Source: Methanolobus mangrovi (GTDB lineage: Archaea; Halobacteriota; Methanosarcinia; Methanosarcinales; Methanosarcinaceae). Taken from it: 64,000 bases of DNA. The position numbers and the translations under genes are program-made. How positions within the stretch are numbered: position 1 is the first letter of the stretch; the number at the start of each line of letters is the position of its first letter. The stretch is taken from contig NZ_CP133594.1 of the NCBI RefSeq assembly GCF_031312535.1, positions 434,001 through 498,000 of the forward strand, in the 5' to 3' direction. This document shows positions 1,930 to 19,626 of the stretch, one piece after another. The notes under the pieces are model-generated. The model searched no databases and was not told where the DNA came from. It saw only the letters and a program-made list of their open reading frames with translations.

Positions 1930-3417
1930 ATGTGGGGTATTAACAACATTGTCAAATATACTGTCATGACTCTATTGGTCCTGATGATAGCCATTGGGAA
2001 TGCATCTGCAACAGCATCGATTTCTATATCTCCTGAATCGCATACCGGTCTATCTCCCGGTGAAACGTTTAATGTGAATATTGATGTTAATTCAGGTGTT
2101 AGTCAGTTATCAGCGGCACATATTAAGTTGGACTATGATCCTAACGCTTTTGAGGTAATTGGCATCACAAAAGGAAGCCTCTTTGAAAATGATGCGCTTA
2201 TAGAGCCGGAAAGTGGTGATGATGGAGATGGCACGATAACCTATGGATTCGCTGATTCGAACTATGACGCGCCAGGAAGTGGGACATTGATATCCATCGA
2301 ATTCCAGATAAAGGATACTATTGAGGGTGTTTACAGTCTCAGTTTCAAGGAAGCGAAGCTTCTTGATCAAAATAAAGATTACCTTGTCGGTGAAGCAACC
2401 GGAAGCTCGGTGGTAGTTGGGGATGTAACAGATGATGCTTCAACACCTTTGGAAACCATTGATCTTGCAAGCCAGACTAAAAGCACATCTGGCAGCAGCA
2501 GCTCATCAACATCTGTCGTGGAACCGCAATTAGGATATGCATATATTTTTGGTTTCCATCCTGATGATTATAAAGTAATAGGACGATATGGAACAACTCG
2601 GAATGATGAATCCTGGTCACAGAATAGTCTTATACTTGAGAATGAACTTGTAACTGAGTTCGAAGGCCAATATCTATTCCCTCAAGGTAAGATTGTATCG
2701 ATTGGCTCCAACTCTGCTGGATATCTGGTAGTCGTATTCTATGAACCACTCATGGTCGATCGAACTGAGATGGATGGCATCTATGCAATAATTGACCAGA
2801 ATGCACAGGACATGGACATAGGTAACGTTCCTGTGGAATTTGCTGAGGGTACGATCTCAGATGTCAGTGACCAATTGCAGGAATTGATCCAAAGGGTACA
2901 GGCAATTAATGAGATGGAACTTGGAGATTTCATGAATAATGAAAGTTCTTTGTATGATCCTACAGTAGTGGCTACAGCCGGTAAACTGCCACAGATAAAC
3001 ACTGAGAAGGAATGCTGGCAATGGTATTTCCAGGATTCATATGCCATTTCTCTTAATGTAAGTGATGAGATGGATGATTATTTGCAAAGTGGTATACTTC
3101 TGAGTACGGGATTATCGCCTGACGGGTACTTTGAAGTAAAGATCAATGAAGAAACCGATGCAAACAAAAAATCACTTATCACTGATGTATATCAGCTTAT
3201 GAACAGAGAAGCCACGAACATTGGCGTAAGCGAAGTTCCTGTAGTTTTCAAACTGGGTAGTCCTGATGAAATAGAGGATAGGCTAACGTCAACTCAGGAA
3301 GAGGCATCAGATGAAGTACAGGGTACTGAGGGTGAAGCAAAGGCGACACCAGGATTTGGTTATCTTATAGGTATCTTGTCCATCACACTGGCGTATTGTA
3401 TGAGGAGTAAAACATAG
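1930..3417 (+). CDS. secreted cohesin-domain protein with PGF-CTERM anchor
   Basis: A 495-residue surface protein. Residues 1-27 are a signal peptide ending IGNASA. Residues about 28-165 form a cohesin-type beta sandwich (SISPESHTGLSPGETFNVNI, AAHIKLDYDPNAFEV, SGDDGDGTITYGFAD). A Ser-rich linker at about 175-195 leads to two further regions of unknown type, each starting with Tyr/Phe-rich strands. The C terminus carries an acidic linker, TPGFGYLIGILSI at about 473, a hydrophobic helix and a basic tail: the PGF-CTERM tripartite signal normally processed by archaeosortase A, which is not encoded here. Cohesins bind dockerins, and a dockerin-ended protein begins 726 bases downstream. Inferred role: an anchored receptor for that or another dockerin protein. 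Confidence 0.85.
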   Translation: MWGINNIVKYTVMTLLVLMIAIGNASATASISISPESHTGLSPGETFNVNIDVNSGVSQLSAAHIKLDYDPNAFEVIGITKGSLFENDALIEPESGDDGDGTITYGFADSNYDAPGSGTLISIEFQIKDTIEGVYSLSFKEAKLLDQNKDYLVGEATGSSVVVGDVTDDASTPLETIDLASQTKSTSGSSSSSTSVVEPQLGYAYIFGFHPDDYKVIGRYGTTRNDESWSQNSLILENELVTEFEGQYLFPQGKIVSIGSNSAGYLVVVFYEPLMVDRTEMDGIYAIIDQNAQDMDIGNVPVEFAEGTISDVSDQLQELIQRVQAINEMELGDFMNNESSLYDPTVVATAGKLPQINTEKECWQWYFQDSYAISLNVSDEMDDYLQSGILLSTGLSPDGYFEVKINEETDANKKSLITDVYQLMNREATNIGVSEVPVVFKLGSPDEIEDRLTSTQEEASDEVQGTEGEAKATPGFGYLIGILSITLAYCMRSKT

Positions 3418-3439
3418 TTATAATCAGAAGGAAGAACTC

Positions 3440-3850
3440 ATGAACACGATAAGAATGATACCTTTCCTAAAAAGGTTTTTTCTTTATCTTACTATTTTAT
3501 TTCTGGTGTGGGTCCCTATAGGCGGGAGATATTTTGCCGCTTCCGTTGTTATTGTGGACCCTGCTAATTTCTTTTTGTTTTATCTCCCGTTGAATTTCAT
3601 TCCTTTTGTAGCTCTGGTACTTGCTACGGCTCTTGAAAGGAAGAGGACCATTAAAATATTACTGATAGGCCTTATGTTAACGATTATTTTCAATTTAGTG
3701 GTGATCTATTTGCAAATACTTTTCTTTTCTTATCAGGATGCGTTTCTTTACATGTATGCTATTGGGCGGATAGCTTTTCCTTTCCTTTTATGGCTGATCT
3801 TTACTTATGACGTAGTTGTTGTTCCTTTACAAAACAAATCAAATGTGTGA
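3440..3850 (+). CDS. polytopic membrane protein resembling exosortase-associated partner proteins
   Basis: A 136-residue protein with about four hydrophobic segments (residues 12-32, 44-64, 70-94, 100-125), starting 22 bases after the PGF-CTERM cohesin gene, with GAAGGAAG as ribosome-binding site. The pattern FFLYLTILFLVWVPIGGRY, then NFIPFVALVLATALERKRT, then LLIGLMLTII resembles the small membrane proteins encoded beside exosortase H in bacteria. It lacks the Cys/Arg/His triad, so it is not itself a sortase. The resemblance is from memory of the pattern and remains an inference. Its position after a sorting-signal protein fits a role in maturation or export of surface proteins. Confidence 0.5.
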   Translation: MNTIRMIPFLKRFFLYLTILFLVWVPIGGRYFAASVVIVDPANFFLFYLPLNFIPFVALVLATALERKRTIKILLIGLMLTIIFNLVVIYLQILFFSYQDAFLYMYAIGRIAFPFLLWLIFTYDVVVVPLQNKSNV

Positions 3851-3922
3851 TCATTGTCCTCTTTTTATTTTTAGCTCCTTACTATTTTCTAATGCCCAGT
3901 CCTGTTGATTTGTTTTTCAAGT

Positions 3923-3944
3923 AACATTGTTCAGGAACAATGTT
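3923..3944 (+). terminator. perfect 10-bp inverted repeat followed by T-rich tract
   Basis: AACATTGTTC and GAACAATGTT are separated by two bases (AG) and followed by TTCTTATTTTTG. It lies 73 bases after the stop of the small membrane-protein gene and 180 bases before the large surface-protein gene. A terminator for the upstream pair is the simplest reading. A dimeric-repressor operator for the downstream gene is the alternative, because a 2-base loop is very short for an RNA hairpin. Confidence 0.5.
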
Positions 3945-4106
3945 TCTTATTTTTGTTTGCTAACTAAATTCTGAAGTTTTATTTCTTATCGGTTTATAAA
4001 ATCTAACTTCATATCATTGTTTGGGGTTGTCGGTGGGATTGTCCAAGACAGCTTCACTGGGGTATCATTGAACGAATGGAGACGGAGTCATGTTTGATGG
4101 TATCAA

Positions 4107-4142
4107 AAAGTCATATGACTTTAAGAAAGGAGGATACTAACA
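4107..4142 (+). promoter_or_regulatory. 16-bp palindrome and strong ribosome-binding site before the large surface protein
   Basis: AAAGTCATATGACTTT at 4107-4122 is a perfect 16-bp palindrome. It is followed by AAGAAAGGAGGATACTAACA, whose GGAGG (4129-4133) is a near-ideal archaeal Shine-Dalgarno at the right spacing to the ATG at 4143. The palindrome could be an operator or a 5'-leader hairpin placed just before the Shine-Dalgarno. The leader from about 4020 to 4106 is GC-richer than its flanks, suggesting a transcribed leader, as expected for an abundant surface protein. Confidence 0.5.
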
Positions 4143-7100
4143 ATGAAAGTGAAGTTCCAGCATAGGCTTTTAGTAGTTGCTATTGCTCTACTTACTATAT
4201 TTTCAATAGCAACTTCAGCAAGTGCTGCTGAAGACGCAAATTCATTGAGGATATACGGTGAAGAAGGACTCAGTGCAGCATTCCCATACACTGATCCGGA
4301 AGCACCATTTGATCCAATGAATATAGAATCGCCAGAGAAAGATTTTGTAACGTTTAATCCGGCCTTAATTGAAGATGATATTGTGGTAAACAATATCGAC
4401 TCCAAGCAAAAGGTCTTTACAAGACAATGGTTTGTGCCAGAGTACACTGAACCAACAGGTATGGTTTGGCTTGATGACTTCATACGCTGTTTTGATCGTA
4501 CACTTGATACGGGTGAAGTTATAGAAGAAGAAGAGGTATTAACTGAAGATGACTTGAGGGCTATATCTCTTGATCAATTCGAGAAGCCAATCAAAAGAGT
4601 GGAATGGGTGCCCAATCACAACGAGTACACTTGGGAAGATGTAGTTACAGACTACACCTACATGTTCGTTGACAAGCACTACCAGCCAAGAGCAGCAACT
4701 GCAAAGAGCACAACAGGTGCTTATTGGACAACCTTCTGGTTCCCTGTCGCAGATAATGATGATGCACAGATTGGTCTTGATGGTTATGACATCGACTACG
4801 ATGGTGTCGATGACATGGTTGTGCTCAAGAAAGTAGGAGATTTCAATTACGATGGTTACAAGGACATAGATATCAGTTCTGATCTTATATCTGTAAAAGT
4901 CGGTGACAAGGTACAGTTCCTCGATCATATCGTAGAGATCGATGATATCTATTATGATGGAAGCGGTGAGCTTGCCAAAGTTGGTGTGAAGGTTTACTAC
5001 AACGGTAACAAGGAACCTGAACTTATAGGTACACTGCACGAAATCGATGTCGAGAAGGGAATCCTTAGTGCAGGCCGTCACACAGTAACAGATGACAAGC
5101 CACAGTTCTATGAACCATGGTATCTTAAAGTAGAGGCTACCAGTGTAGGCAGTGACAAGGTTCTTCTTACAGTAGGACGCCAACTCTATGAAAGAGAGAC
5201 ATTCTTCGTAGATGGTGCAGAATATGACGTCGCCAGGATCTATGGTCCTGAGTACAACAGTGTTAAGTACATCACTATCAGAAACCCTGTACCAGAACAC
5301 CAGGATGTTTCAATAAATGACCTCTCAGTTGTCAAGGAAATGGTTGACAATGGTGAGTATCTCCCATTGCTGCCACCACTTAACAAGGTGCACACAATGG
5401 TTGATGACATAAACATTCCTCACAATGAATACGAGATCTGTCCATACACAGGATATGAAGGTTCTATTCTGAATGAAGCCGCTCCTGATGGAGAATGGTA
5501 TGAGGATATAGGAATATCTGATGCATATGATACTGTAGAAGAACGTAAGATCTACGATGTTGATCCATTGCTTATCTACTTCATCAACAAGGATCTTGAA
5601 CCAAGGTTCCACACCAACCTGCTTGAGCTGCTTGACGAAGGTGAACTCAAATCAGTTGATGTGGAAGTAGTTGAAGCCTGGAAGTGGCTACACATCCGTA
5701 CAATGCCAGACTTCTACAAGGAATTCGTCTATCCTGAGCTGCCTGATATTGATGAAGGTACAGGTGACTTCCTGTTTACAAGTTCTTTCAGAGCAGAGAA
5801 CTCAATATTGTGTGATGACGTTCCACAATACGTCTGCAACTTTAAGAACATCGTCTGGCCACAGAGACTTATGTTCGTCTATGATCAGGTAACAGGAGCC
5901 GAGGATATCTATGTCAACGAGATTGACACAGAGACCAATGGACTGAGAGTCTATGGTGAAGATGGACTCACTGCAGCATTCCCATACGAGGATCCTGAAG
6001 CACCATTTGATCCACTGAGTGATGAAGCTCCAGAAAAGGACTTTGTAACACTTAACCCTGCAAAGATAAAGGCAGGAATTGTTGTGGACAACAAGGACTC
6101 ACACGAGAAGGTCTTCTTCAGACAGTGGTTCGTACCTGAATACACTGAGCCAACCGGTATGGTATGGCTTGATGATTTCTACCGTGTTGATGGTGATTCA
6201 AGAGAACTTCTAACTGAGGAAGATTTGAGAAAGCCTCCACAGGATTGCATAGTTGAATGGGTACCAAACCACAATGAATACGTCTGGGAAGATGTAGTGA
6301 ACGAGTTCACTTACATGTTCATTGACAAGCATTACCAGCCAACGGCTGCAACCGCAATGAGCTCCACTGGTGCTTACTGGACAACATTCTGGTTCCCAGT
6401 TGCAGACAATGACGAACAGATCGGTCTTGACAGCTTTGACATCAACTATGATGGAGTTGACGATATGGTGCTGCTCAAGAAGGTAGGAGACTTCAACCAT
6501 GATACTTACAAGGATATCAAGATCAGCTCAGATCTTCTGTCTGTAGGTGTCGGTGAGAGGGTACAGTTCCTCGACCACATTGTAGAGATTGATGACATTA
6601 ACTACGATGGAAATGGTGAAATTTCCATGGTATCTGTCAAGGTATACTACAACGGTAACAAGGAACCTGTGCAGATAGGAACACTACACACAATTGATGT
6701 AGAGTACGGAATCCTTAGTGCGGGTCGTCACACTGTAACAGACAACTATCCACAGTTCTATGAACCATGGTATCTTGAAATTGAAGGTACAGGTGTAAAC
6801 CATGACAAGGTACTTCTTACAGTAGGACGCCAGCTCTATGAAAGAGAAACATTCTTCGTAGACGGTGCAGAATACGATGTTGCCAGGATCTTTGGTCCAG
6901 AGTACAACGATGTCAAGTACATCACCATAAGGAACCCACTGCCAGAACACAAGGACATTGCACTCAATGACCTTTCCGTTGTCAAGAAGGCTGTGTATGA
7001 CGGTGACATCATACCTGTGCTACCACCATTCAATGGTGACCACATTATGATAGATGATATCGATGTACCACACTACATACCTGGTGGAGAAGACACGACC

Positions 7101-7769
7101 TGCTACTACGGACAGTGGTTCGATTCAACTGCAACCGACGACCTGCTCTGGTATCATGACATGTACATCAACACACCATATGACACAATTGCAGAACGTA
7201 TGTTCGATGTGCCAGCAACTGAGATCTACTTCACAGGCAAGGACTATGAGGACAGATTCCACACCAACCTGCTTGAGCTGCTCAGAGAATGTGATGGTGT
7301 AGTTGCTACAGCAGACACAATTCCAGTTAAGTCATTCGAGACCTGGAAGTGGCTACACATCTACACAATGCCAGACTTCTACAAGGAGTTTGTCTATCCA
7401 GATGTGCCAAATGCAGGCGGCGAAGGCGACTATCTGCTGACAAGTTCATTCACAGCACCAAACTCTGATGTTTGTGACAATGTTGAACTATCAACTGAAT
7501 TCCAGAGGATTATGTTCACATATGATCCAACGGATGGCACAGGTCTGTACATGAACGGCGGTGCTCCAGTAGTTGAACCACCAGTTGATGAGATGAAGGG
7601 TGACTACGATGGAAATGAAATTGTCAACTTCGACGACTTTGTTGAATTCGCAGCATGCTACAACTCAGTAATGGGTGACAGCAACTACAATGCAATCTTC
7701 GACTTCGATGACGATGGTGACGTAGACTTCGATGACTTCGTAGAGTTCGCAGGAGTATATCAGTCTTAA
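4143..7769 (+). CDS. large duplicated secreted protein with C-terminal dockerin-like domain; S-layer candidate
   Basis: 1208 residues. Residues 1-29 are a signal peptide ending ATSASAA. Two homologous halves follow, about 35-600 and 601-1145; both open with LR(I/V)YGE(E/D)GL(S/T)AAFPY and share RQWFVPEYTEPTGMVWLDDF and VGRQLYERETFFVDGAEYDV. Residues 1152-1208 carry two Ca-binding loops (DYDGNEIVNFDDF and DFDDDGDVDFDDF) spaced as in type I dockerins. Acidic loops such as DYDGVDDM and NYDGYKDI within the halves also look calcium-binding. Codons favour TAC, AAC and GAC, and the Shine-Dalgarno is strong, suggesting high expression. Tandem duplication is typical of Methanosarcina S-layer proteins, though I cannot confirm the same domain family. 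No C-terminal membrane anchor is present, so attachment probably uses the dockerin. Confidence 0.8.
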   Translation: MKVKFQHRLLVVAIALLTIFSIATSASAAEDANSLRIYGEEGLSAAFPYTDPEAPFDPMNIESPEKDFVTFNPALIEDDIVVNNIDSKQKVFTRQWFVPEYTEPTGMVWLDDFIRCFDRTLDTGEVIEEEEVLTEDDLRAISLDQFEKPIKRVEWVPNHNEYTWEDVVTDYTYMFVDKHYQPRAATAKSTTGAYWTTFWFPVADNDDAQIGLDGYDIDYDGVDDMVVLKKVGDFNYDGYKDIDISSDLISVKVGDKVQFLDHIVEIDDIYYDGSGELAKVGVKVYYNGNKEPELIGTLHEIDVEKGILSAGRHTVTDDKPQFYEPWYLKVEATSVGSDKVLLTVGRQLYERETFFVDGAEYDVARIYGPEYNSVKYITIRNPVPEHQDVSINDLSVVKEMVDNGEYLPLLPPLNKVHTMVDDINIPHNEYEICPYTGYEGSILNEAAPDGEWYEDIGISDAYDTVEERKIYDVDPLLIYFINKDLEPRFHTNLLELLDEGELKSVDVEVVEAWKWLHIRTMPDFYKEFVYPELPDIDEGTGDFLFTSSFRAENSILCDDVPQYVCNFKNIVWPQRLMFVYDQVTGAEDIYVNEIDTETNGLRVYGEDGLTAAFPYEDPEAPFDPLSDEAPEKDFVTLNPAKIKAGIVVDNKDSHEKVFFRQWFVPEYTEPTGMVWLDDFYRVDGDSRELLTEEDLRKPPQDCIVEWVPNHNEYVWEDVVNEFTYMFIDKHYQPTAATAMSSTGAYWTTFWFPVADNDEQIGLDSFDINYDGVDDMVLLKKVGDFNHDTYKDIKISSDLLSVGVGERVQFLDHIVEIDDINYDGNGEISMVSVKVYYNGNKEPVQIGTLHTIDVEYGILSAGRHTVTDNYPQFYEPWYLEIEGTGVNHDKVLLTVGRQLYERETFFVDGAEYDVARIFGPEYNDVKYITIRNPLPEHKDIALNDLSVVKKAVYDGDIIPVLPPFNGDHIMIDDIDVPHYIPGGEDTTCYYGQWFDSTATDDLLWYHDMYINTPYDTIAERMFDVPATEIYFTGKDYEDRFHTNLLELLRECDGVVATADTIPVKSFETWKWLHIYTMPDFYKEFVYPDVPNAGGEGDYLLTSSFTAPNSDVCDNVELSTEFQRIMFTYDPTDGTGLYMNGGAPVVEPPVDEMKGDYDGNEIVNFDDFVEFAACYNSVMGDSNYNAIFDFDDDGDVDFDDFVEFAGVYQS
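4245..7580 (+). repeat. internal tandem duplication, about 1.7 kb per copy
   Basis: The halves 4245-5942 and 5943-7580 align along their length, with many identical 15-25 base blocks, for example around the TATGAAAGAGA(G/A)ACATTCTTC segments at 5188 and 6838. The second half has more C-ending codons. The copies differ by insertions in the first copy (after WLDDF) and in the second copy (before YFTGKDYEDR). Confidence 0.85.
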
Positions 7770-7791
7770 GCCTGATATAAGAGGTGAAATC

Positions 7792-9723
7792 ATGACAAAA
7801 ATAACACATAAGGGAATGGCAGGATTAACTGCCACCCTTTTAATATTTTGTGCATGTTTCATGGTAGGCGTAGGACTTGCAGCTGCTGATCCTTCGGTGT
7901 CAGTAGATCCACAAACAAATGAGTATGATGCAGGCGATACGTTTCAGGTTACTGTAATGGTTAATTCTGATACAGATAACCTCCGTGCCGTGAACCTGCA
8001 GCTTGATTACGATCCGGCAATACTCTCGGTGAACAGTGTAACCGATGAGGACTTGCTTGGAGCGGGAGCCCTTGTAGCACCAGGCAGTGGCGACGACGGT
8101 GCAGGTACCATATCCTATGGTATTGCATCTACCAGCGGTGTTTATGCACCGGTAGCCGGAACAATGCTAACCATTGAGTTTGCAATTGATGCCAGTGCAG
8201 CAAATGGAACCTATAACCTTGACCTGAATGCTGTATCGCTTAAGGATCAGGATAACGTAGCTATTCCAGGAGTTATAATCACAGATGGAACAGTAAAAGT
8301 TGGAGATGAAGTAATTCCAACACCTTCTGAACCGGAAGTGGAGATTAGTCCGGTAGCAAGCGGTCCTGTTGGTCCCGGTGACACATTCCAGGTACAGGTA
8401 GAAGTGGATTCTGCTGACTACAACCTTCGTGCTGTAAATCTGCAGATGAATTACGATTCATCCGCACTTATGGTGAACAGCATTACTGATGAGGACTTAC
8501 TTGGAGCAGGAGCACTTGTTGCACCTGGAAGCGGTGACGATGGTGCAGGCACCATTGCCTATGGTATTGCTTCTACCAGCGGTGTTTATGTACCGGTAGC
8601 CGGAACAATGCTAACCATTGAGTTCGAAGTGAAGGCAGGCGCAGCAAACGGAACCTATGATCTTGACCTGAATAGTGTCTCTCTCAAGGACCAGGACAAT
8701 GTAGCTATCCCTGATGTAGGTGTCACGGATGGTAGTGTTCAGGTATCTGGAGACGGTCAGGTCCCCGATATGCCAACAGCCATGATAGTACCAACATCAA
8801 GCGGACCTATTGCAGCTGGAGATACTTTCCAGGTGGATATAGAGATAGACTCTGCTGACTACAACCTCCGTGCTGTAAGCGTGCAGCTTGATTATGATCC
8901 TGCAGCACTCATGGTAAACAGCATGACCAATGGCTTACTGGGACCGGGAGCACTTGAAGCACCTGGAAGCGGTGACGACGGAGCAGGTACTATTACATAT
9001 GGACTTGCAGCCACTGGTGGTGTTTATACTCCAGAGGCCGGTACATTGCTGACAATCGAGTTCGAAGTCAAAGCAGATGCAACAGATGGTATCTATGATC
9101 TTGACATGTACAATGTAGTTCTCAAGGATGAAGCAAATGCTGATATTCCTGGTGTTATAGTAACTGATGGTATGGTTGAAGTTTCAACAGTGCCTGAGGT
9201 TGAAGGAATAGCACTCCTGCCAGGATGGAACTTGATATCAATTCCACAGACACTTGAGAATGCAGGCATTGACTATGTACTCCAAGACTTCAATGATACT
9301 GAAGTAGACAGTGTCTTCTATTATGATGCTTCTACTGGCATGATGGTTGTACCGGATGACTTTGAACCATTGAAGGCATACTGGGTGCACAACAACCTGA
9401 GTGAGACTGTAGTGATCAATGGAAGCTATCTTACACCAATGGTACCTTCCACACCTCCATCACTGACACTTTATCCAGGATGGAACGCAATTGGTCACAC
9501 TGCCATGGTAGAGCTTCCTGCAGAGGTTGCTTTGTCCACGATTGATGACTGCTACATCAAGGTCATGGGACCATGGATGGCTTCCACAAGTGAGTTTGCT
9601 TACGTAGGCTACAATGGAGAGGAAGGAGTTATCAATGGTAACCAGGTAGGCACCGATGTCTTTGCCATGAATATGTATGAAGGCTATTTCGTATTCGTAG
9701 ATGAGGAGTGTCTATTGGGCTGA
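7792..9723 (+). CDS. secreted three-cohesin protein
   Basis: 643 residues, starting 22 bases after the dockerin-bearing gene with AGAGGTGAAATC as ribosome-binding site, so the two are very likely one transcription unit. Signal peptide 1-34. Three cohesin-type modules at about 35-165, 182-318 and 331-468 each carry GDTFQV, LRAV..Q(L/M)(D/N)YD, GSGDDGAGTI and a closing (I/V).VTDG. Residues 470-643 form a different domain, opening LLPGWNLISIPQTL and echoed by LYPGWNAIGHTAMVEL, as seen in other methanogen surface proteins. There is no C-terminal transmembrane segment. Inferred role: a scaffold joining dockerin-bearing proteins, the adjacent large protein being the obvious partner. Confidence 0.88.
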   Translation: MTKITHKGMAGLTATLLIFCACFMVGVGLAAADPSVSVDPQTNEYDAGDTFQVTVMVNSDTDNLRAVNLQLDYDPAILSVNSVTDEDLLGAGALVAPGSGDDGAGTISYGIASTSGVYAPVAGTMLTIEFAIDASAANGTYNLDLNAVSLKDQDNVAIPGVIITDGTVKVGDEVIPTPSEPEVEISPVASGPVGPGDTFQVQVEVDSADYNLRAVNLQMNYDSSALMVNSITDEDLLGAGALVAPGSGDDGAGTIAYGIASTSGVYVPVAGTMLTIEFEVKAGAANGTYDLDLNSVSLKDQDNVAIPDVGVTDGSVQVSGDGQVPDMPTAMIVPTSSGPIAAGDTFQVDIEIDSADYNLRAVSVQLDYDPAALMVNSMTNGLLGPGALEAPGSGDDGAGTITYGLAATGGVYTPEAGTLLTIEFEVKADATDGIYDLDMYNVVLKDEANADIPGVIVTDGMVEVSTVPEVEGIALLPGWNLISIPQTLENAGIDYVLQDFNDTEVDSVFYYDASTGMMVVPDDFEPLKAYWVHNNLSETVVINGSYLTPMVPSTPPSLTLYPGWNAIGHTAMVELPAEVALSTIDDCYIKVMGPWMASTSEFAYVGYNGEEGVINGNQVGTDVFAMNMYEGYFVFVDEECLLG

Positions 9724-9784: not shown

Positions 9785-10438
9785 GTGGGACGTATGATAA
9801 GCGATAAAAAATATGGTGTTTCATTACAGGTTTTGATAATTTTATTCTCATTCATAGTAGTAGCTGTACCTGCTGCAGCCATTTCTCCTCCGGTAGTATT
9901 AGAAGGGAGTTTAATGCTTGATGGAAGTCCGGCACCTGTGGGTACCGAAGTGGCAGCTGTTGTTGATGGCCAGACAGTTGGTGAAACAACTGTAACGAAT
10001 ACAGGTCTTTTCGGTGATGAACGAAGCAACAGGCTGGGAGTGAGCTCTGATTACAGTGTAGTCACGATCTATGTGAATGGTGTGGAAACAACAACATTGG
10101 ACCTTAGCAGTTACCAGAGTGGTGAAATGATTTCCCTTGATCTTAGTGCAACTACTCCTGCATCTCCTACTACAACTGGAACGAAATCTTCAGGTGGTGG
10201 CGGAGGCTTTAGTAGTGTTACTACGGAGACTACCGAAGAAGCTGTGGACACAGGATCTGAAACATCACAACCAGATGAAACAATAGTTCAGAGTCCAATA
10301 GAGGAAGAAGTAGCTGATGAAGTAGCAGGTGAAGAAGAATCATCGCCTGTAAGTGGTGTCAGCAGTATGATTGCTATATTTGGTCTTATTCTTGTAGGGG
10401 CTGTAATTGTTTCCTATAGATACAAGTCCAAGAAATAG
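9785..10438 (+). CDS. secreted protein with C-terminal membrane anchor
   Basis: 217 residues, ATG 5 bases after GGTGG. The N terminus has a hydrophobic signal ending VPAAAIS at about residue 36. Residues 37-125 look like a small beta domain (VVLEGSLMLDGSPAPVGTEV..VDGQTVGETTVT, then YSVVTIYVNG) of the carboxypeptidase-regulatory or big-Ig type. A Thr/Ser/Gly linker with GGGGGF follows, then an acidic Glu-rich stalk (about 150-185). The end is a hydrophobic helix (SSMIAIFGLILVGAVIVSY) with the tail RYKSKK. The tripartite end resembles a sorting signal, but neither PGF nor VPXXXP is present (the preceding motif is SPVSG). Function unknown; it is probably displayed on the envelope. Confidence 0.75.
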   Translation: MGRMISDKKYGVSLQVLIILFSFIVVAVPAAAISPPVVLEGSLMLDGSPAPVGTEVAAVVDGQTVGETTVTNTGLFGDERSNRLGVSSDYSVVTIYVNGVETTTLDLSSYQSGEMISLDLSATTPASPTTTGTKSSGGGGGFSSVTTETTEEAVDTGSETSQPDETIVQSPIEEEVADEVAGEEESSPVSGVSSMIAIFGLILVGAVIVSYRYKSKK

Positions 10439-12838: not shown

Positions 12839-12911
12839 ACGATAATAAATAGTGTTCTATGTAAATTATTCCCTAGTAGTAATAAATCTTTTACTTATAA
12901 GGGTGGGGCAA

Positions 12912-15900
12912 ATGACAAAATACAATTTACTTTTTGTGATAGCTCTGGTGTTGCTCGTGATGTCGGGGACAGCAGTAGCTATCACTGTGGATGGAGAAAG
13001 AAGTATAGATGAATGGAATGAGAACTGGAACTTTGGCCAGGTAAATGGTACCAGCTATGATTCAAATGGTCCTTTCGGAGACAAGATGGTTGTATTCCAG
13101 AATGGGGGCTGGTATGATGAGGACCCTGCTGCAGATGCAGGTACCAACTTCAATGAGAATCTAAGTACGGAAGGTCCTTATCCCAGTGGATATGATATAA
13201 AAGGACAGTATGCTCATTATGACATAATCAATGACACGCTCTATGGTATGTCTACAGTATACGGTCTTCCTGGCGATCTTGACGGTAATGGGAATATAGT
13301 CGGCCTTACGGAAAATGGCGATATACTTGGACCAGTTACTGGAAAAGATCTCACAGGAATCGGTCCTGGGGAACAATGGAGTATCATGATATTCCAGGGT
13401 GATAAAGCACTGATAATAGTGATTACAAATAATGACTGGACTGTTAGCACAATAGGCTTTACAGGAATTGATGAGAATGATGTAATTGCTGCAAATGGTA
13501 ATGCAGGTGGTCCTGATAACTGCAGTAATTGTGTATATGAGATATCAGTACAGAACCTGGCTCAATATTTCGATATGACTCCTGGTCAGGGATTCAGTGT
13601 GGCTTCGAGTGCCGGAGGAAACCTTGACATTGTAGGAGAAGACATTGCAGCAGTATTCTTTGAAATACCAAATCCAGAAATTGATATTGAAAAATCAACT
13701 AATGGTGAGGATGCTGATGCTGCACCAGGTCCTGGAATACCTCAGGGTAATGAACTCCTGTGGACCTATGTTGTAACCAACACCGGTAATGTGCCATTGG
13801 AGAACATATCGGTCACAGATGACAAACTCGGTTCCATCACTGACATAATCAATAATGGTGATGGTGATTCGACACTGGCGATCGGAGAAACATGGATCTA
13901 TATTGCAACTGGAATTGCTGAATGTGGTCAGTATGAGAATAATGCTACAGCAGTTGGTTTCTTTGATGTGATACCTGTTTTTGATATTGACCCAAGCCAC
14001 TACTTCGGTGAATGTCCTGATATCGATATCGAGAAAGCTACTAACGGTGAAGATGCTGATGTTGGCCCTGGTCCTGGAATCCCGGAGGGTGATGCTGTTA
14101 CATGGACCTATGTTGTAACCAACACAGGTAATGTCAATCTTACAGACATTCAGGTAAGTGACAACATTCTTGGAACTATCACCAACATAATCGATCAGGG
14201 TGATGGTGACGATGTACTTGCCGTCGGTGAGGTATGGACACTTGAAGCAACAGGTGTTGCTGAATGTGGTCAATACGAGAACGAGGGTACCGTTACCGGT
14301 GATTCTGGTGACACTACTGTAAATGACAGTGACTTGAGCCACTATTTCGGTGAATGTCCTGATATAGATATCGAGAAAGCCACAAACGGTATCGATGCTG
14401 ATGTTGGTCCTGGTCCTGGAATCCCACAGGGTGATGTTGTTACATGGACGTATGTTGTAACCAACACAGGTAATGTCAACCTTACAAACATTCAGGTAAG
14501 TGACAATATCCTCGGAACTATCACCAACATAATCGATCAGGGAGATGGCGATGATATACTTGCCATTGGTGAAGTATGGACACTTGAAGCAACCGGTGTT
14601 GTTGAATGTGGTCAGTACGAGAACGAAGGTAGTGTAGCCGGTGATTATGGTGACACTACTGTAAATGACAGTGACTTGAGCCACTACTTCGGTGAATGTC
14701 CTGACATTGATATCGAGAAAGCCACAAACGGCGAAGATGCTGATGTTGGTCCTGGCCCTGGCATTCCACAGGGTGATGCAGTAACGTGGACCTATGTTGT
14801 AACCAACACAGGTAATGTCAACCTTACAAACATTCAGGTAAGTGACAACATCCTCGGAACTATCACCAACATAATCGATCAGGGAGATGGCGACGATATA
14901 CTTGCTGTCGGAGAAGTGTGGACACTTGAAGCAACGGGTGTTGCTGAATGTGGTCAGTACGAGAACGAAGGTAGTGTAGCCGGTGATTATGGTGATACTA
15001 CTGTTACTGACAGTGACTTGAGCCACTACTTCGGTGAATGTCCTGACATCGACATTGAGAAGGCCACCAACGGTGAAGATGCTGATGTTGGTCCAGGTCC
15101 TGGACTACAGGAAGGTGATGTTGTTACATGGACGTATGTTGTAACCAACACTGGTAATGTCGATCTCACAAATATTCAGGTAAGTGACAATATCCTCGGA
15201 ACTATCACCAACATAATTGATCAGGGAGATGGCGACGATATACTTGCTGTCGGAGAAGTGTGGACACTTGAAGCAACCGGTGTTGCTGAATGTGGCCAAT
15301 ACGAGAACGAAGGTACTGTAACCGGTGATGCTGGTGATACTACTGTAAATGACAGTGACTTGAGCCACTATTTCGGTGAATGTCCTGACATCGATATTGA
15401 GAAGGCAACAAATGGTATCGATGCTGATGTTGGTCCTGGCCCTGGAATCCCACAGGGTGATGTTGTTACATGGACATATGTTGTAACCAACACTGGTAAT
15501 GTCAACCTTACAAACATTCAGGTAAGTGACAGTATTCTTGGAACTATCACCAACATTATCGACAATGGTGATGGCGACGATATACTTGCTGTCGGAGAAG
15601 TGTGGACACTTGAAGCAACCGGTGTTGCTGAATGTGGCCAATACGAGAACGAAGGTACTGTAACTGGTGATGCTGGTGATACTACTGTTACTGACAGTGA
15701 CTTGAGCCACTACTTCGGTGAATGTCCTGACATCGATATCGAGAAGGCCACCAATGGCGAAGATGCTGATGTTGGTCCTGGCCCTGGAATCCCACAGGGT
15801 GATGTTGTTACATGGACGTATGTTGTAACCAACACTGGTAATGTCAACCTTACAAACATTCAGGTAAGTGACAGTATTCTTGGAACTATCACCAACATTA

Positions 15901-17204
15901 TTGATCAGGGAGATGGCGACGATATACTTGCTGTCGGAGAAGTGTGGACACTTCAAGCAACCGGTGTTGCTGAATGTGGTCAGTACGAGAACGAAGGTAC
16001 TGTAACTGGTGATGCTGGTGATACTACTGTTACTGACAGTGACTTGAGCCACTACTTCGGTGAATGTCCTGACATCGATATCGAGAAGGCCACAAATGGT
16101 GAGGATGCTGACACTGCTCCAGGTCCATCACTTGATGTTGGTGATACTGTCACGTGGACCTATGTTGTAACTAATACTGGTAATGTTGACCTTACAAACA
16201 TCCAGGTAAGTGATAACATCCTTGGTGCTATCACTAATATTATCGATAAGGGTGATGGAGATGACATACTTGCTGTAGATGAGGTATGGGTGCTTGAAGC
16301 AATAGGCAGTGCTTCATGTGGTGACTATGCAAACCTCGGTACTGTAACAGGTGATTATAACGAGATCACAGTAACTGACGAGGATCCAAGTCACTATAAT
16401 GTTGTCTGCATACCTCGTATTGATATCGAGAAATCAACCAATGGTGTTGATGCTGATGTAGCTCCAGGACCTACGCTTGTCTATGATTCAAATATCACCT
16501 GGGAATATGTGGTCACAAACACTGGTAATGTACACCTTACCAACGTGACGGTCACTGACGATAAGCTTGGTGTCATAACAAATATCGTGGACAAAGGAAA
16601 CGGTGATGACACTCTTCTACCGGGTGAAGTATGGATATACCAGGCAACAGGTAAAGCAGAATGTGGTCAGTATGCCAACATTGCAGATGTTGTAGGTCAT
16701 TATGGTGCTATTCCGGTAACTGATAATGACCCCAGCCACTACAATGTGAACTGTGGACCTGATATTGATATTGAGAAATATATCAATGGAAACGATGCTG
16801 ACCATGCTCCTGGAGTTCTGCTTGCTGTAGGTGATGAGATCATCTGGACCTTTATTGTGGAGAACACAGGCAATGTTCCATTGGTGAATGTGGTTGTTGA
16901 TGATGACAAACTGGGAATAATACCTTCATCAAGCATTATTTCGAAGAGCATCAACAATGATGACATTCTGGATCCGGGAGAGGTCTGGACATACGAGCTA
17001 AGGGATAGCATGCAGGAATGTGTTCCGCAGCACACGAATACTGCAGTTGTTACAGGTGAGTTTGAAGGTGATGAAGTTACAGATGAGGATGCAGCCAATT
17101 ACTACTGCCAGCCTGTAGTACCACTGTTGAGTCCTGTTGGAATGGTGGTATTCATCACATCTCTTGGACTTGTGGGGGCATTCTATCTTAGGAGGGGGGA
17201 TTAA
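12912..17204 (+). CDS. giant VPXXXP-CTERM surface protein with about ten DUF11-like repeats
   Basis: 1430 residues. The ATG at 12912 is chosen over an in-frame ATG 60 bases upstream because it follows GGGTGGGG and begins the signal peptide (KYNLLFVIALVLLVMSGTAVA). Residues 22-255 form an N-terminal domain (ITVDGERSIDEWNENWNFGQ...) shared with the next gene. About ten repeats of 114-115 residues follow, each opening DIDIEKATNG.DAD, then VTWTYVVTNTGNV, then AECGQYEN: a DUF11/CARDB-like stalk whose paired cysteines could form disulphides. The C terminus is VPLLSPVG, a hydrophobic helix and RRGD, the VPXXXP-CTERM signal for archaeosortase B. The matching sortase gene lies 1.8 kb downstream. Likely an extended, lipid-attached surface fibre. 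Confidence 0.9.
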   Translation: MTKYNLLFVIALVLLVMSGTAVAITVDGERSIDEWNENWNFGQVNGTSYDSNGPFGDKMVVFQNGGWYDEDPAADAGTNFNENLSTEGPYPSGYDIKGQYAHYDIINDTLYGMSTVYGLPGDLDGNGNIVGLTENGDILGPVTGKDLTGIGPGEQWSIMIFQGDKALIIVITNNDWTVSTIGFTGIDENDVIAANGNAGGPDNCSNCVYEISVQNLAQYFDMTPGQGFSVASSAGGNLDIVGEDIAAVFFEIPNPEIDIEKSTNGEDADAAPGPGIPQGNELLWTYVVTNTGNVPLENISVTDDKLGSITDIINNGDGDSTLAIGETWIYIATGIAECGQYENNATAVGFFDVIPVFDIDPSHYFGECPDIDIEKATNGEDADVGPGPGIPEGDAVTWTYVVTNTGNVNLTDIQVSDNILGTITNIIDQGDGDDVLAVGEVWTLEATGVAECGQYENEGTVTGDSGDTTVNDSDLSHYFGECPDIDIEKATNGIDADVGPGPGIPQGDVVTWTYVVTNTGNVNLTNIQVSDNILGTITNIIDQGDGDDILAIGEVWTLEATGVVECGQYENEGSVAGDYGDTTVNDSDLSHYFGECPDIDIEKATNGEDADVGPGPGIPQGDAVTWTYVVTNTGNVNLTNIQVSDNILGTITNIIDQGDGDDILAVGEVWTLEATGVAECGQYENEGSVAGDYGDTTVTDSDLSHYFGECPDIDIEKATNGEDADVGPGPGLQEGDVVTWTYVVTNTGNVDLTNIQVSDNILGTITNIIDQGDGDDILAVGEVWTLEATGVAECGQYENEGTVTGDAGDTTVNDSDLSHYFGECPDIDIEKATNGIDADVGPGPGIPQGDVVTWTYVVTNTGNVNLTNIQVSDSILGTITNIIDNGDGDDILAVGEVWTLEATGVAECGQYENEGTVTGDAGDTTVTDSDLSHYFGECPDIDIEKATNGEDADVGPGPGIPQGDVVTWTYVVTNTGNVNLTNIQVSDSILGTITNIIDQGDGDDILAVGEVWTLQATGVAECGQYENEGTVTGDAGDTTVTDSDLSHYFGECPDIDIEKATNGEDADTAPGPSLDVGDTVTWTYVVTNTGNVDLTNIQVSDNILGAITNIIDKGDGDDILAVDEVWVLEAIGSASCGDYANLGTVTGDYNEITVTDEDPSHYNVVCIPRIDIEKSTNGVDADVAPGPTLVYDSNITWEYVVTNTGNVHLTNVTVTDDKLGVITNIVDKGNGDDTLLPGEVWIYQATGKAECGQYANIADVVGHYGAIPVTDNDPSHYNVNCGPDIDIEKYINGNDADHAPGVLLAVGDEIIWTFIVENTGNVPLVNVVVDDDKLGIIPSSSIISKSINNDDILDPGEVWTYELRDSMQECVPQHTNTAVVTGEFEGDEVTDEDAANYYCQPVVPLLSPVGMVVFITSLGLVGAFYLRRGD
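14019..16070 (+). repeat. six in-register 342-bp tandem repeats
   Basis: Units start at 14019, 14361, 14703, 15045, 15387 and 15729, and a diverged unit at 16071, giving an exact period of 342 bases (114 codons). Flanking units starting at about 13677, 16416 and 16761 are more diverged and have periods of 342-345. Neighbouring central units share stretches of well over 50 identical bases, indicating recent expansion or gene conversion. Confidence 0.93.
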
Positions 17205-17350
17205 TTCCTCCTTTTCTTTTCTTAAAATAAGTTCTGATTTTACCTGACTTAACAATTTAACTTATGTTTGCTTAAATTTGCAGAGTTGAGTATTCCTTTT
17301 ATACTTACTTTAAACCAAACAGTATTTTTCCGAAATATTTTTACGTAACA

Positions 17351-17372
17351 ATCCTACTGAATTTAGTTTGCT
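17351..17372 (+). promoter_or_regulatory. CCTACT...TTTGCT upstream element of the second VPXXXP gene
   Basis: ATCCTACTGAATTTAGTTTGCT ends 72 bases before the ATG at 17444 and matches the element before the first VPXXXP gene in sequence and distance. TATATATTG follows at 17381, a possible TATA box. The shared element suggests the two genes answer to the same factor. Confidence 0.45.
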
Positions 17373-17443
17373 GTATTGCTATATATTGTGGCAACTAACT
17401 CTTTATTGTTAATATATTCTTTATAAGAAGGGAGCGGAAAATA

Positions 17444-18985
17444 ATGAACAGATTACATGTAATGTTCGGAATATTGATCATTTTATTCTCCGTCCCCAGT
17501 GCTGCGGCAATATCCGTGGATGGGGTGCGTGGAGTTGGGGAGTGGGACGAAGGCTGGGCCTTTGCACAAACAGAAGGCACAGGTTATGATTCCAACGGTC
17601 CTTTTGGAGATAAAATGGTTATATTCCAGGATGGAAATTGGTATGATGAAGACCCTCTGACCGATTCGGGTACGAATTTTGATGAAAGCATGGCTACGGC
17701 AGGACCGGCTGAAAGCGGATACGACCTTCGGGGATTTTATGCACGTTATGATCCTGTAGGCGATGTACTTTATGGTATGTCTACAGTATACGGTCTTCCG
17801 GGTGACCTCGATGGTGATACAAGCATATCCAGTGTAATAGCTAATGGTGACACTGCAGGTGCTGTAACCGCAAGACCTATCACAGGTATTGGTGCTGGTG
17901 AGCAGTTCAGCATAGTACTTACCCAGGACACACAGAGTGTGCTTATACTTGTCACCAATAATGATGTGACTGTAGCTATCCTTAATGGTGCCTTCCCTGG
18001 TTTTACTGAAGCAAATGTAGTTGCGGCTAACAGTCAGGCTGGAGATGCAGTATATGAGATATCTATCGCAGGTCTTAGTAACTATTTCGATCTGAGTGGC
18101 GGTGAAGAATTTGAAGTAGAAATAACTGCCGGAGGCAATCTTGATATTCCTGGTGAGGACAGGGCACTTATATTCATTGCAGTTCCTAACCCGGACATTG
18201 ATATTGAGAAGGCAACTAACGGTTTTGATGCAGATAATCCAACAGGACCTGAACTTCAGCCTGGGGATGATGTTACATGGACCTATGTTGTTACTAATAT
18301 GGGAGATGTGCCACTGGAAAATGTTGCTGTTACTGACAACATTCTTGGTGTCATAACTAACATCATAGACAAAGGCAATGGTGATGATATACTGGACATT
18401 GGTGAGATATGGACCTATGAGGCGACTGGCACTGCAGAATGTGGTCAGTATGCTAATGTTGCTGACGTTGTAGGTTACTATGGTGTCATTCCGGTAACTG
18501 ATGAAGATCCAAGTCACTACATTGTAAGATGTGAACCTGACATTGACATTGAGAAGCATACAAATGGCTATGATGCAGATTACCCTTCAGGTCCGCAGAT
18601 TGCTGTAGGGGAGACCATTACATGGGAATACTTCGTAACCAACACTGGAAATGTACCACTGGAAAATATCGTTGTTGAAGATGATGTGATCGGTACGATC
18701 GGGGATGCTAAGATCGTTTCCAAGAGTATTAACAATGATGATATTCTCGATGTTGGAGAAGTATGGACCTATGTGGTTACAGATACTCTGGAGGAATGTG
18801 TTCCACTGTACGAGAACATTGCTGTTGTAACCGGTGAGGATGAGCAAGGTACTGTCGTAACTGATGAGGACCCAAGCCACTACCACTGTCAGCCTGTTGT
18901 CCCACTGCTGACGCCTGTTGGTATAATGGCTATGGTCGGTGCACTTGGAATACTTGGAATTGTCACGCTGAGACGTCGTGATTAA
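17444..18985 (+). CDS. VPXXXP-CTERM surface protein, short paralogue with two repeats
   Basis: 513 residues, ATG 9 bases after AAGGGAG. Signal peptide 1-23 (HVMFGILIILFSVPSAAA). The N-terminal domain (ISVDGVRGVGEWDEGWAFAQ, YDSNGPFGDKM, TVYGLPGDLDGD) is homologous to that of the 1430-residue protein. Only two DUF11-like repeats follow, opening DIDIEKATNGFDAD at about 252 and DIDIEKHTNGYDAD at about 366. The C terminus is VPLLTPVG, a hydrophobic helix and RRRD: the VPXXXP-CTERM signal. It sits 47 bases before the archaeosortase gene, the usual arrangement of a dedicated substrate. It looks like the parent or partner of the long stalk protein. Confidence 0.9.
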   Translation: MNRLHVMFGILIILFSVPSAAAISVDGVRGVGEWDEGWAFAQTEGTGYDSNGPFGDKMVIFQDGNWYDEDPLTDSGTNFDESMATAGPAESGYDLRGFYARYDPVGDVLYGMSTVYGLPGDLDGDTSISSVIANGDTAGAVTARPITGIGAGEQFSIVLTQDTQSVLILVTNNDVTVAILNGAFPGFTEANVVAANSQAGDAVYEISIAGLSNYFDLSGGEEFEVEITAGGNLDIPGEDRALIFIAVPNPDIDIEKATNGFDADNPTGPELQPGDDVTWTYVVTNMGDVPLENVAVTDNILGVITNIIDKGNGDDILDIGEIWTYEATGTAECGQYANVADVVGYYGVIPVTDEDPSHYIVRCEPDIDIEKHTNGYDADYPSGPQIAVGETITWEYFVTNTGNVPLENIVVEDDVIGTIGDAKIVSKSINNDDILDVGEVWTYVVTDTLEECVPLYENIAVVTGEDEQGTVVTDEDPSHYHCQPVVPLLTPVGIMAMVGALGILGIVTLRRRD

Positions 18986-19032
18986 TTCCAATCCTTTTTC
19001 TTTTTCATAGTTTTTTTTTTCTTGGAGGAAAG

Positions 19033-19626
19033 ATGGCTAAAAAAGAAAAACAATTAAAGGGTGCCAGGAAACATAAAACTATAGAAAAAGTAGATGGTCC
19101 TTTAGTTCATAGTAAGGGTAATGTGCATGCATTCTTGAAAAAGAACGAGCGCATTCTCAGGTTCATAGGGCCGTATCTCTTTTACATAGCACTTTTCACA
19201 GGGACATATGTATTATTTCAGGAGAAGTTCGTTTTCCTGAGCACATCGACTGCAAGTGCCCTTTCAGTTCTGATGTCTCTCCTTGGAGTTGAAAGTTCTT
19301 CTTATGGTCAATCCGTTTACATGAACGGCTTTTCTGTCATGGTCATAGATGAATGTACAGGAATGTATGAGCTACTGGTTTATGCAGGATGTGTGCTTGC
19401 CTATCCTACGACATTACGTAACAAGGCACTTGGTATCGTTCTGGGAATACCCGCAATGTTAGTTATAAACATGTTCAGGCTGGTTTTCCTTTCCTTTGTA
19501 GGATTGATGTATCCTGCACTTTTCAGCTATGTACATTATTATCTGTGGCAGATAACATTCATCTTCCTTATCGTGATGCTCATGTTACTATGGATAGAAA
19601 AGGTAGTGAAGAGTGGAAATATTTGA
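19033..19626 (+). CDS. artB: archaeosortase B (VPXXXP-CTERM-specific)
   Basis: 197-residue integral membrane cysteine transpeptidase of the exosortase/archaeosortase family. The ATG follows TTGGAGGAAAG. After a basic 40-residue cytoplasmic tail come about five membrane segments. The catalytic triad is visible: Cys108 in DECTGMYEL, Arg149 in NMFRLVFL and His168 in YVHYYLWQ. It would cut the VPXXXP signal on the outer face of the membrane and probably transfer the substrate to a lipid. The assignment to ArtB rather than ArtA or ArtC rests on the two VPXXXP-CTERM substrates immediately upstream. The N-terminal basic extension is longer than in a minimal sortase. Confidence 0.92.
   Translation: MAKKEKQLKGARKHKTIEKVDGPLVHSKGNVHAFLKKNERILRFIGPYLFYIALFTGTYVLFQEKFVFLSTSTASALSVLMSLLGVESSSYGQSVYMNGFSVMVIDECTGMYELLVYAGCVLAYPTTLRNKALGIVLGIPAMLVINMFRLVFLSFVGLMYPALFSYVHYYLWQITFIFLIVMLMLLWIEKVVKSGNI

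Follow-up and report, generated by a model that had tools for sequence, protein, structure and literature searches.

A conserved gene set of Methanolobus mangrovi likely to encode a calcium-dependent, non-cellulosomal cohesin-dockerin surface assembly

Introduction

What would a methanogenic archaeon do with cohesins and a dockerin when no glycoside hydrolase accompanies them? The question is raised by a gene set of Methanolobus mangrovi that lies in a 64,000-nucleotide stretch of DNA, here called the window (C1:434001-498000 of the complete 2.62-Mb genome, labelled G000). Three open reading frames, on the + strand like their domains and the two accompanying genes described below, encode a 495-amino acid (aa) single-cohesin surface protein (1930-3417), a duplicated 1208-aa surface protein that ends in a putative dockerin (4143-7769) and a 643-aa three-cohesin scaffold (7792-9723), the last two separated by 22 bases (7770-7791). 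An earlier annotation made from the letters of the window (the original prediction) had the positions, strand and spacing right, and proposed that a dockerin-ended major wall subunit builds a surface lattice instead of an enzyme complex. Here, we describe the domains and conservation of this set, which probably specifies a calcium-dependent, non-cellulosomal surface assembly in which the dockerin of the 4143-7769 product sits in the scaffold cohesins and the fixed partner of that product is the GWN domain at the scaffold's C-terminus. Most likely, plug and socket hold together the two halves of a structure on the cell surface, not an enzyme complex, and act as a Ca2+-dependent tether there.

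Results

The 1208-aa protein is built, in order, of a signal peptide, two repeats that are 68% identical (569 aa, 4230-5936, from alignments A1 and A3; 539 aa, 5937-7553, all-beta in an AlphaFold2 model from 41 repeats), a proline-rich linker and a 58-aa C-terminal module (7593-7766), which bears out the predicted duplication. The module contains two 12-residue D-x-[DN]-x-[DN]...D loops (7602-7637 and 7701-7736) placed 33 residues apart, whose D1 and D12 are invariant across the 27 dockerins compared; in the predicted structure it has two C-terminal helices only, each following a calcium loop, and no E helix. At the same position, seven of ten relatives tested exceed the Pfam Dockerin_1 cut-off of 22.9 (55.5, 40.0, 39.7, 37.0, 30.8, 28.1 and 27.0 bits). 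A family profile built from 16 C-terminal modules and searched against the PDB has cellulosomal dockerins as its best matches (2y3n_B, E 4e-12; 4wi0_B, 1.6e-9; 4u3s_B, 1e-8), with calmodulin at E 0.0037, and also matches proteins of this genome that themselves exceed the Dockerin_1 cut-off. Because the relatives pass Dockerin_1 at this position and the profile finds solved dockerins first, the module can be assigned to the dockerin type; the predicted dockerin end is upheld by way of its relatives and the family profile and not by the Pfam result for the window copy. The two halves of a dockerin agree at loop positions 10 (96% within a protein vs 39% between proteins), 11 (74% vs 12%) and 14 (100% vs 32%), and such symmetric halves are the pattern of dockerins with dual binding, which have two equivalent faces (PMC5301203).

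On the other side of the putative joint, the scaffold carries three Pfam cohesins (145.5 bits in total, cut-off 24.1) at 7897-8298, 8347-8742 and 8797-9180, followed by the GWN domain (9205-9720), which has two GWN...AYW/GYF halves and is conserved in the scaffolds. The product of 1930-3417 has a signal peptide, one Pfam cohesin (58.4 bits against the same cut-off, ~2029-2376) and a C-terminal transmembrane segment (~3346-3414). Both proteins are as the original prediction had them.

Among 238 genomes of the class, 28 have relatives of the 1208-aa protein at E<=1e-10, in some cases through the dockerin alone, and the protein itself is present in about half of Methanolobus. A same-strand cohesin gene lies immediately downstream in 23 of the 23 dockerin-ended loci found (14 in Methanolobus, the others in G006, G030, G032, G044, G063, G071, G078, G259 and L018), encodes one to three cohesins and starts within ~115 bases or with a slight overlap. 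These loci range from Methanolobus to anaerobic methanotrophic archaea (ANME) of group ANME-2c, to ethane oxidisers and further; in G006 and G078 the scaffolds escaped a narrow cohesin model but were found by a wider one, by Pfam and by the GWN profile. Among the dockerin-less copies (L189, L190, L192-L197 and L199-L202), the next gene is not a cohesin gene in 12 of 12, with only ~0.5-1.1 kilobases (kb) of downstream sequence covered in L194, L195 and L197. One of the 23 loci, L018 (JAGHAD010000104.1), stands on a contig filed as Thermoplasmata, where the repeat-dockerin gene overlaps the cohesin gene by one base; this reflects either a transfer or mis-binning of the contig. The single-contig genome G006 has two cohesin gene sets with matching spacing and scores (C1:179794-182808 and 841303-844317), apparently a duplicated segment.

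Dockerin and scaffold-cohesin identities correlate once the repeat body is controlled for (partial Mantel r 0.82, p 0.0005), also within Methanolobus alone (partial Mantel r 0.86, p 0.0002). Compared with the window, G131 has 78% identity in the repeat body and 87% in the GWN domain, with 57% in the dockerin and 42% in the cohesins, a pattern in which dockerin and cohesins, but not the flanking domains, appear to have diverged in step. In G111 (L131:3059-5260), the same dockerin type is found on an unrelated 733-aa repeat protein without a family match, whose gene precedes one for a two-cohesin-GWN scaffold: the dockerin client has been exchanged. The strict gene pairing, the joint divergence and the natural fusion described next mark dockerin and cohesins, as judged from genomes, as evolutionary partners.

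That fusion occurs in nine ANME-1 loci (group f11), where the repeat core runs on into a C-terminal tail with a match to the scaffold GWN domain (hhalign probability 98.1%, E 9.6e-14; controls below 1%). In G366, which has neither dockerin nor cohesin, the downstream gene still ends in GWN. From the ANME-1 fusions and the G366 arrangement, repeat core and GWN appear to be the constant partners, with the dockerin-cohesin pair as one way of linking them. Some lineages were placed by comparing the McrA of genome groups with solved structures. The nearest structure to McrA of f11 is 3sqg (identity ~95% or more, judged by eye), which we take to be the ANME-1 protein and hence f11 to be ANME-1; that of f4 is closest to 9qm5, labelled ANME-2c; that of f2 is identical to 7b1s, labelled ethyl-coenzyme M reductase; and that of f5 is identical to 9qr1, presumably from ANME-2d, and f5 likewise. 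Four MCR-alpha genes suggest that f21 is Syntrophoarchaeum, and the McrA search gave no MCR-alpha match in f10.

Two genes overlooked by the original prediction accompany the three. One of them, at 9785-10438, encodes a secreted protein whose C-terminus holds a transmembrane helix, and it has a homologue 3' of the scaffold in nearly all loci with sufficient downstream sequence, which places it in the conserved gene set as a candidate membrane anchor. A hydrophobic 136-aa membrane protein with no family match (3440-3850) lies between the single-cohesin and repeat genes and has homologues in L064 and every Methanolobus core locus (phmmer E 1e-46 or better), with weak matches in L071 and L192; the single-cohesin gene itself is upstream in Methanolobus core loci only.

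Elsewhere in this genome, a 1123-aa paralogous scaffold (L083:2756-6127; G000:C1 ~788755-792126) reads PF07752-PKD-3 cohesins-GWN and is by its domains a surface layer (S-layer)-linked scaffold with the same GWN domain as that of the window. Dockerin proteins found in the genome are the repeat protein, two CAP-domain proteins, one Ig-repeat and one WD40-like protein. In other Methanolobus the same dockerin subfamily occurs on NosD/beta-helix, protease-like and cohesin-bearing proteins, and Pfam cohesin matches number 6-17 per Methanolobus genome with the cassette vs 1-4 without it. Some small secreted proteins (L125, L133, L135 and L123) combine a single cohesin and a single dockerin in the same chain and are possible adaptors or chain-builders. 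Two neighbouring genes at L087:4100-6474 (G000:C1 ~1791600-1793970) encode a cohesin protein of 183 aa that has a transmembrane segment at its C-terminus and a 606-aa WD40-like/cohesin protein with a degenerate dockerin, and similar gene pairs are present in G131, G127 and G132. Downstream of the cassette, window positions 12852-19626 encode a DUF11/DUF7507 repeat protein of 1450 aa, a 513-aa protein whose VPXXXP-CTERM match falls below threshold, and archaeosortase B, which suggests a second surface-anchoring system adjoining the first.

Discussion

From the domains, strict pairing, joint divergence, symmetric recognition positions and natural fusion seen in the sequences, we infer binding, calcium dependence, stoichiometry, attachment point and surface function as follows. 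The two-repeat protein would be secreted in abundance, and its C-terminal dockerin would plug, with calcium, into the cohesins of the protein encoded next door at 7792-9723, so that one scaffold could hold up to three copies while its GWN domain would serve as the fixed partner of the repeat protein. The dockerin-cohesin joint would replace the covalent repeat-GWN link of several ANME-1 genomes and may add multiplicity and exchangeable cargo, the latter because dockerins of this subfamily are also found on CAP-domain, NosD/beta-helix and protease-like proteins of Methanolobus. These other dockerin proteins may compete for or share the scaffold sockets. The membrane-anchored products of 9785-10438 and 1930-3417 would probably fix the assembly to the membrane or S-layer zone.

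Several points weigh against this proposal. Pfam Dockerin_1 does not match the window copy of the module, even at E = 10. As dockerin and cohesins are adjacent, one recombination tract could have replaced both neighbours without selection for matching, and the non-adjacent cohesin of the anchored protein co-varies with the dockerin weakly (partial r 0.51). The GWN domain also occurs on another scaffold of this genome, which makes the repeat-GWN fusion suggestive, not unique.

The set might instead be a general cargo-display or adhesion platform for cell-cell contact, with the repeat protein as one cargo of several, which we think unlikely though worth serious attention. To our knowledge, Methanolobus methanogens have no obligate partners, which counts against such a role, as does the observation that, of the dockerin carriers, only the repeat protein lies beside the scaffold every time in these loci, and its fusion to GWN in ANME-1 points to a dedicated partner. 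For a platform speak the sharing of the dockerin subfamily with CAP, NosD and protease-like proteins, the higher number of cohesin matches where the cassette is present, and the link of cohesin/dockerin proteins to partnerships of ANME with sulfate-reducing bacteria (PMC9012536, PMC10553843).

Somewhat less probable still is that the repeat protein is a second S-layer or wall subunit, its dockerin merely fixing or nucleating a lattice on the scaffold cohesins. The Pfam scan gave no PF07752 (DUF1608) match in the 1208-aa protein, and among 65 S-layer domains hhalign found none that matches the repeat family (PF07752 probability 0.5%), so we claim no S-layer homology. PF07752 is found in 41 of 41 sampled genomes of the family, and this genome encodes its own PF07752 proteins elsewhere, including an 872-aa one and a 673-aa two-domain one with the size and layout of the major S-layer protein MA0829. 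The view of the dockerin carrier as the major wall subunit is therefore not supported in the form proposed, and the repeat protein is also missing from about half of Methanolobus; what stands of the predicted lattice is a non-cellulosomal cohesin-dockerin surface assembly, carried by conservation, co-divergence and fusion. Profile searches, proposed with that prediction, returned the cohesins, and the dockerin in relatives, but no S-layer domain in 4143-7769. An S-layer link is nonetheless plausible with the opposite polarity, since the unambiguous S-layer domain occurs on the paralogous scaffold, together with cohesins.

Structure gives a hint of an S-layer-like fold. The single-repeat AlphaFold2 model (both repeats as alignment rows; pLDDT 85.5, pTM 0.87) has the MA0829 S-layer domain 3u2g as its top Foldseek match among 350,542 PDB chains, a weak and non-significant match (E 0.017, probability 0.66, TM-score 0.15-0.27), and the whole-protein model (pLDDT 72.6, pTM 0.60) has no PDB match. 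Codon adaptation of the repeat gene (0.60) is above that of all 24 background genes (maximum 0.57), with 0.655 for the MA0829-like S-layer gene and an average 0.485 for the scaffold gene. Such codon usage suggests that the repeat protein is highly expressed, a point in favour of a wall subunit, and the average value of the scaffold would fit several repeat proteins per scaffold. Codon usage in ANME-1 likewise suggests expression above background, a result of little weight with only 6-8 background genes. N-glycosylation sequons number 0 in the window repeat protein where 5.1 are expected, which argues against a classical glycosylated S-layer; they are depleted in most Methanolobus relatives too, unlike in S-layer proteins of this genome, whose S-layer homologue has 11.

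ANME-1 may differ. In 12 ANME-1 genomes tested that have the two-repeat protein, PF07752 is represented by one short fragment only, and this near-absence leaves room for a wall role there. We raise tentatively, as something we would not expect to hold, that the two-repeat protein is an unrecognised wall protein of methane- and alkane-oxidising archaea, its core-GWN fusion being a main wall component in ANME-1 and the two parts being split elsewhere and joined by cohesin and dockerin. If true, a wall unit split in Methanolobus, ANME-2c, ANME-2d and ethane oxidisers would be modular and exchangeable.

Very little speaks for the C-terminal module being an ordinary EF-hand pair that binds calcium but partners no cohesin, an outcome that the original prediction had named as fatal to it: in the window copy only EF-hand Pfam models match, all below their cut-offs, and we reject this explanation on the Dockerin_1 scores of relatives at the same position, the ranking of dockerins far above EF-hand proteins by the family profile, the lack of an E helix in the structure model and the strict pairing with cohesin genes. 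A reduced cellulosome, that is, a polysaccharide enzyme complex, has a multi-cohesin scaffold and a dockerin carrier in its favour and is next to inconceivable, since no glycoside hydrolase, carbohydrate-binding module or SLH domain was found in the set and, as predicted, no glycoside hydrolase family in the cassette or on the scanned dockerin proteins of this genome, which refutes it for the parts examined.

Returning to the calcium-dependent tether of repeat protein and scaffold, we found no description of this operon in the main text of open-licence papers. Genome evidence now allows its partners to be named, and the genus has cultured species, among them Methanolobus vulcani and M. bombayensis with the cassette, so that function can be tested in the laboratory, and the natural matched and mismatched dockerin-cohesin pairs are available for specificity tests. 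Uncultured ANME-1, ANME-2c, ANME-2d and ethane oxidisers have these parts as well, and the repeat protein is a candidate surface protein for ANME-1. A joint that takes the place of a peptide bond in relatives would show with unusual directness what purpose such a joint serves.

Comparison with known systems

Like the type I cellulosome of Clostridia, the set combines a multi-cohesin scaffold, a client dockerin with symmetric halves and an anchored single-cohesin protein. It differs in its client, a non-enzymatic duplicated surface protein, in a scaffold that ends in GWN, in membrane-anchored archaeal proteins that stand in place of SLH anchors, and in that no glycoside hydrolases or carbohydrate-binding modules were found here. 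In its working it resembles the assembly half of a cellulosome, yet it is not itself a cellulosome, because no dockerin-borne glycoside hydrolase was found.

With MA0829 (DUF1608, PF07752) the repeat protein shares secretion, two tandem all-beta domains and, judging by codon usage, good expression, and the MA0829 domain 3u2g is its top, non-significant fold match. It has no sequence or profile similarity to MA0829, lacks the N-glycosylation sequons of this genome's S-layer homologue (11), and ends in a dockerin where MA0829 has a membrane anchor at the C-terminus. Archaeal sheath (SH) proteins, which have been reported in ANME-1, likewise lie at the surface and are not S-layer proteins (Medvedeva et al. 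2024, PMC11576556); those without Ig-like domains are described as 150-350 aa long with an amyloid-like, two-sheet core. The repeat unit here is ~540 aa long.

The cohesin-dockerin pair of Archaeoglobus fulgidus, used experimentally as a stable pair, is also archaeal and non-cellulosomal, and as far as it is described in PMC12484212 no repeat-protein/GWN assembly is reported with it. The set can be grouped with archaeal cohesin-dockerin proteins known from ANME genomes, where multi-cohesin scaffoldin-like and dockerin proteins occur without cellulases, as here, and some ANME-2c proteins join S-layer and dockerin domains (Chadwick et al. 2022, PMC9012536). That work listed the domains and left the dockerin-cohesin partners open; what is new is that partners can be assigned, with carrier and cohesin gene matched across genomes, co-divergence between them, and a counterpart in which the joint is a covalent fusion.

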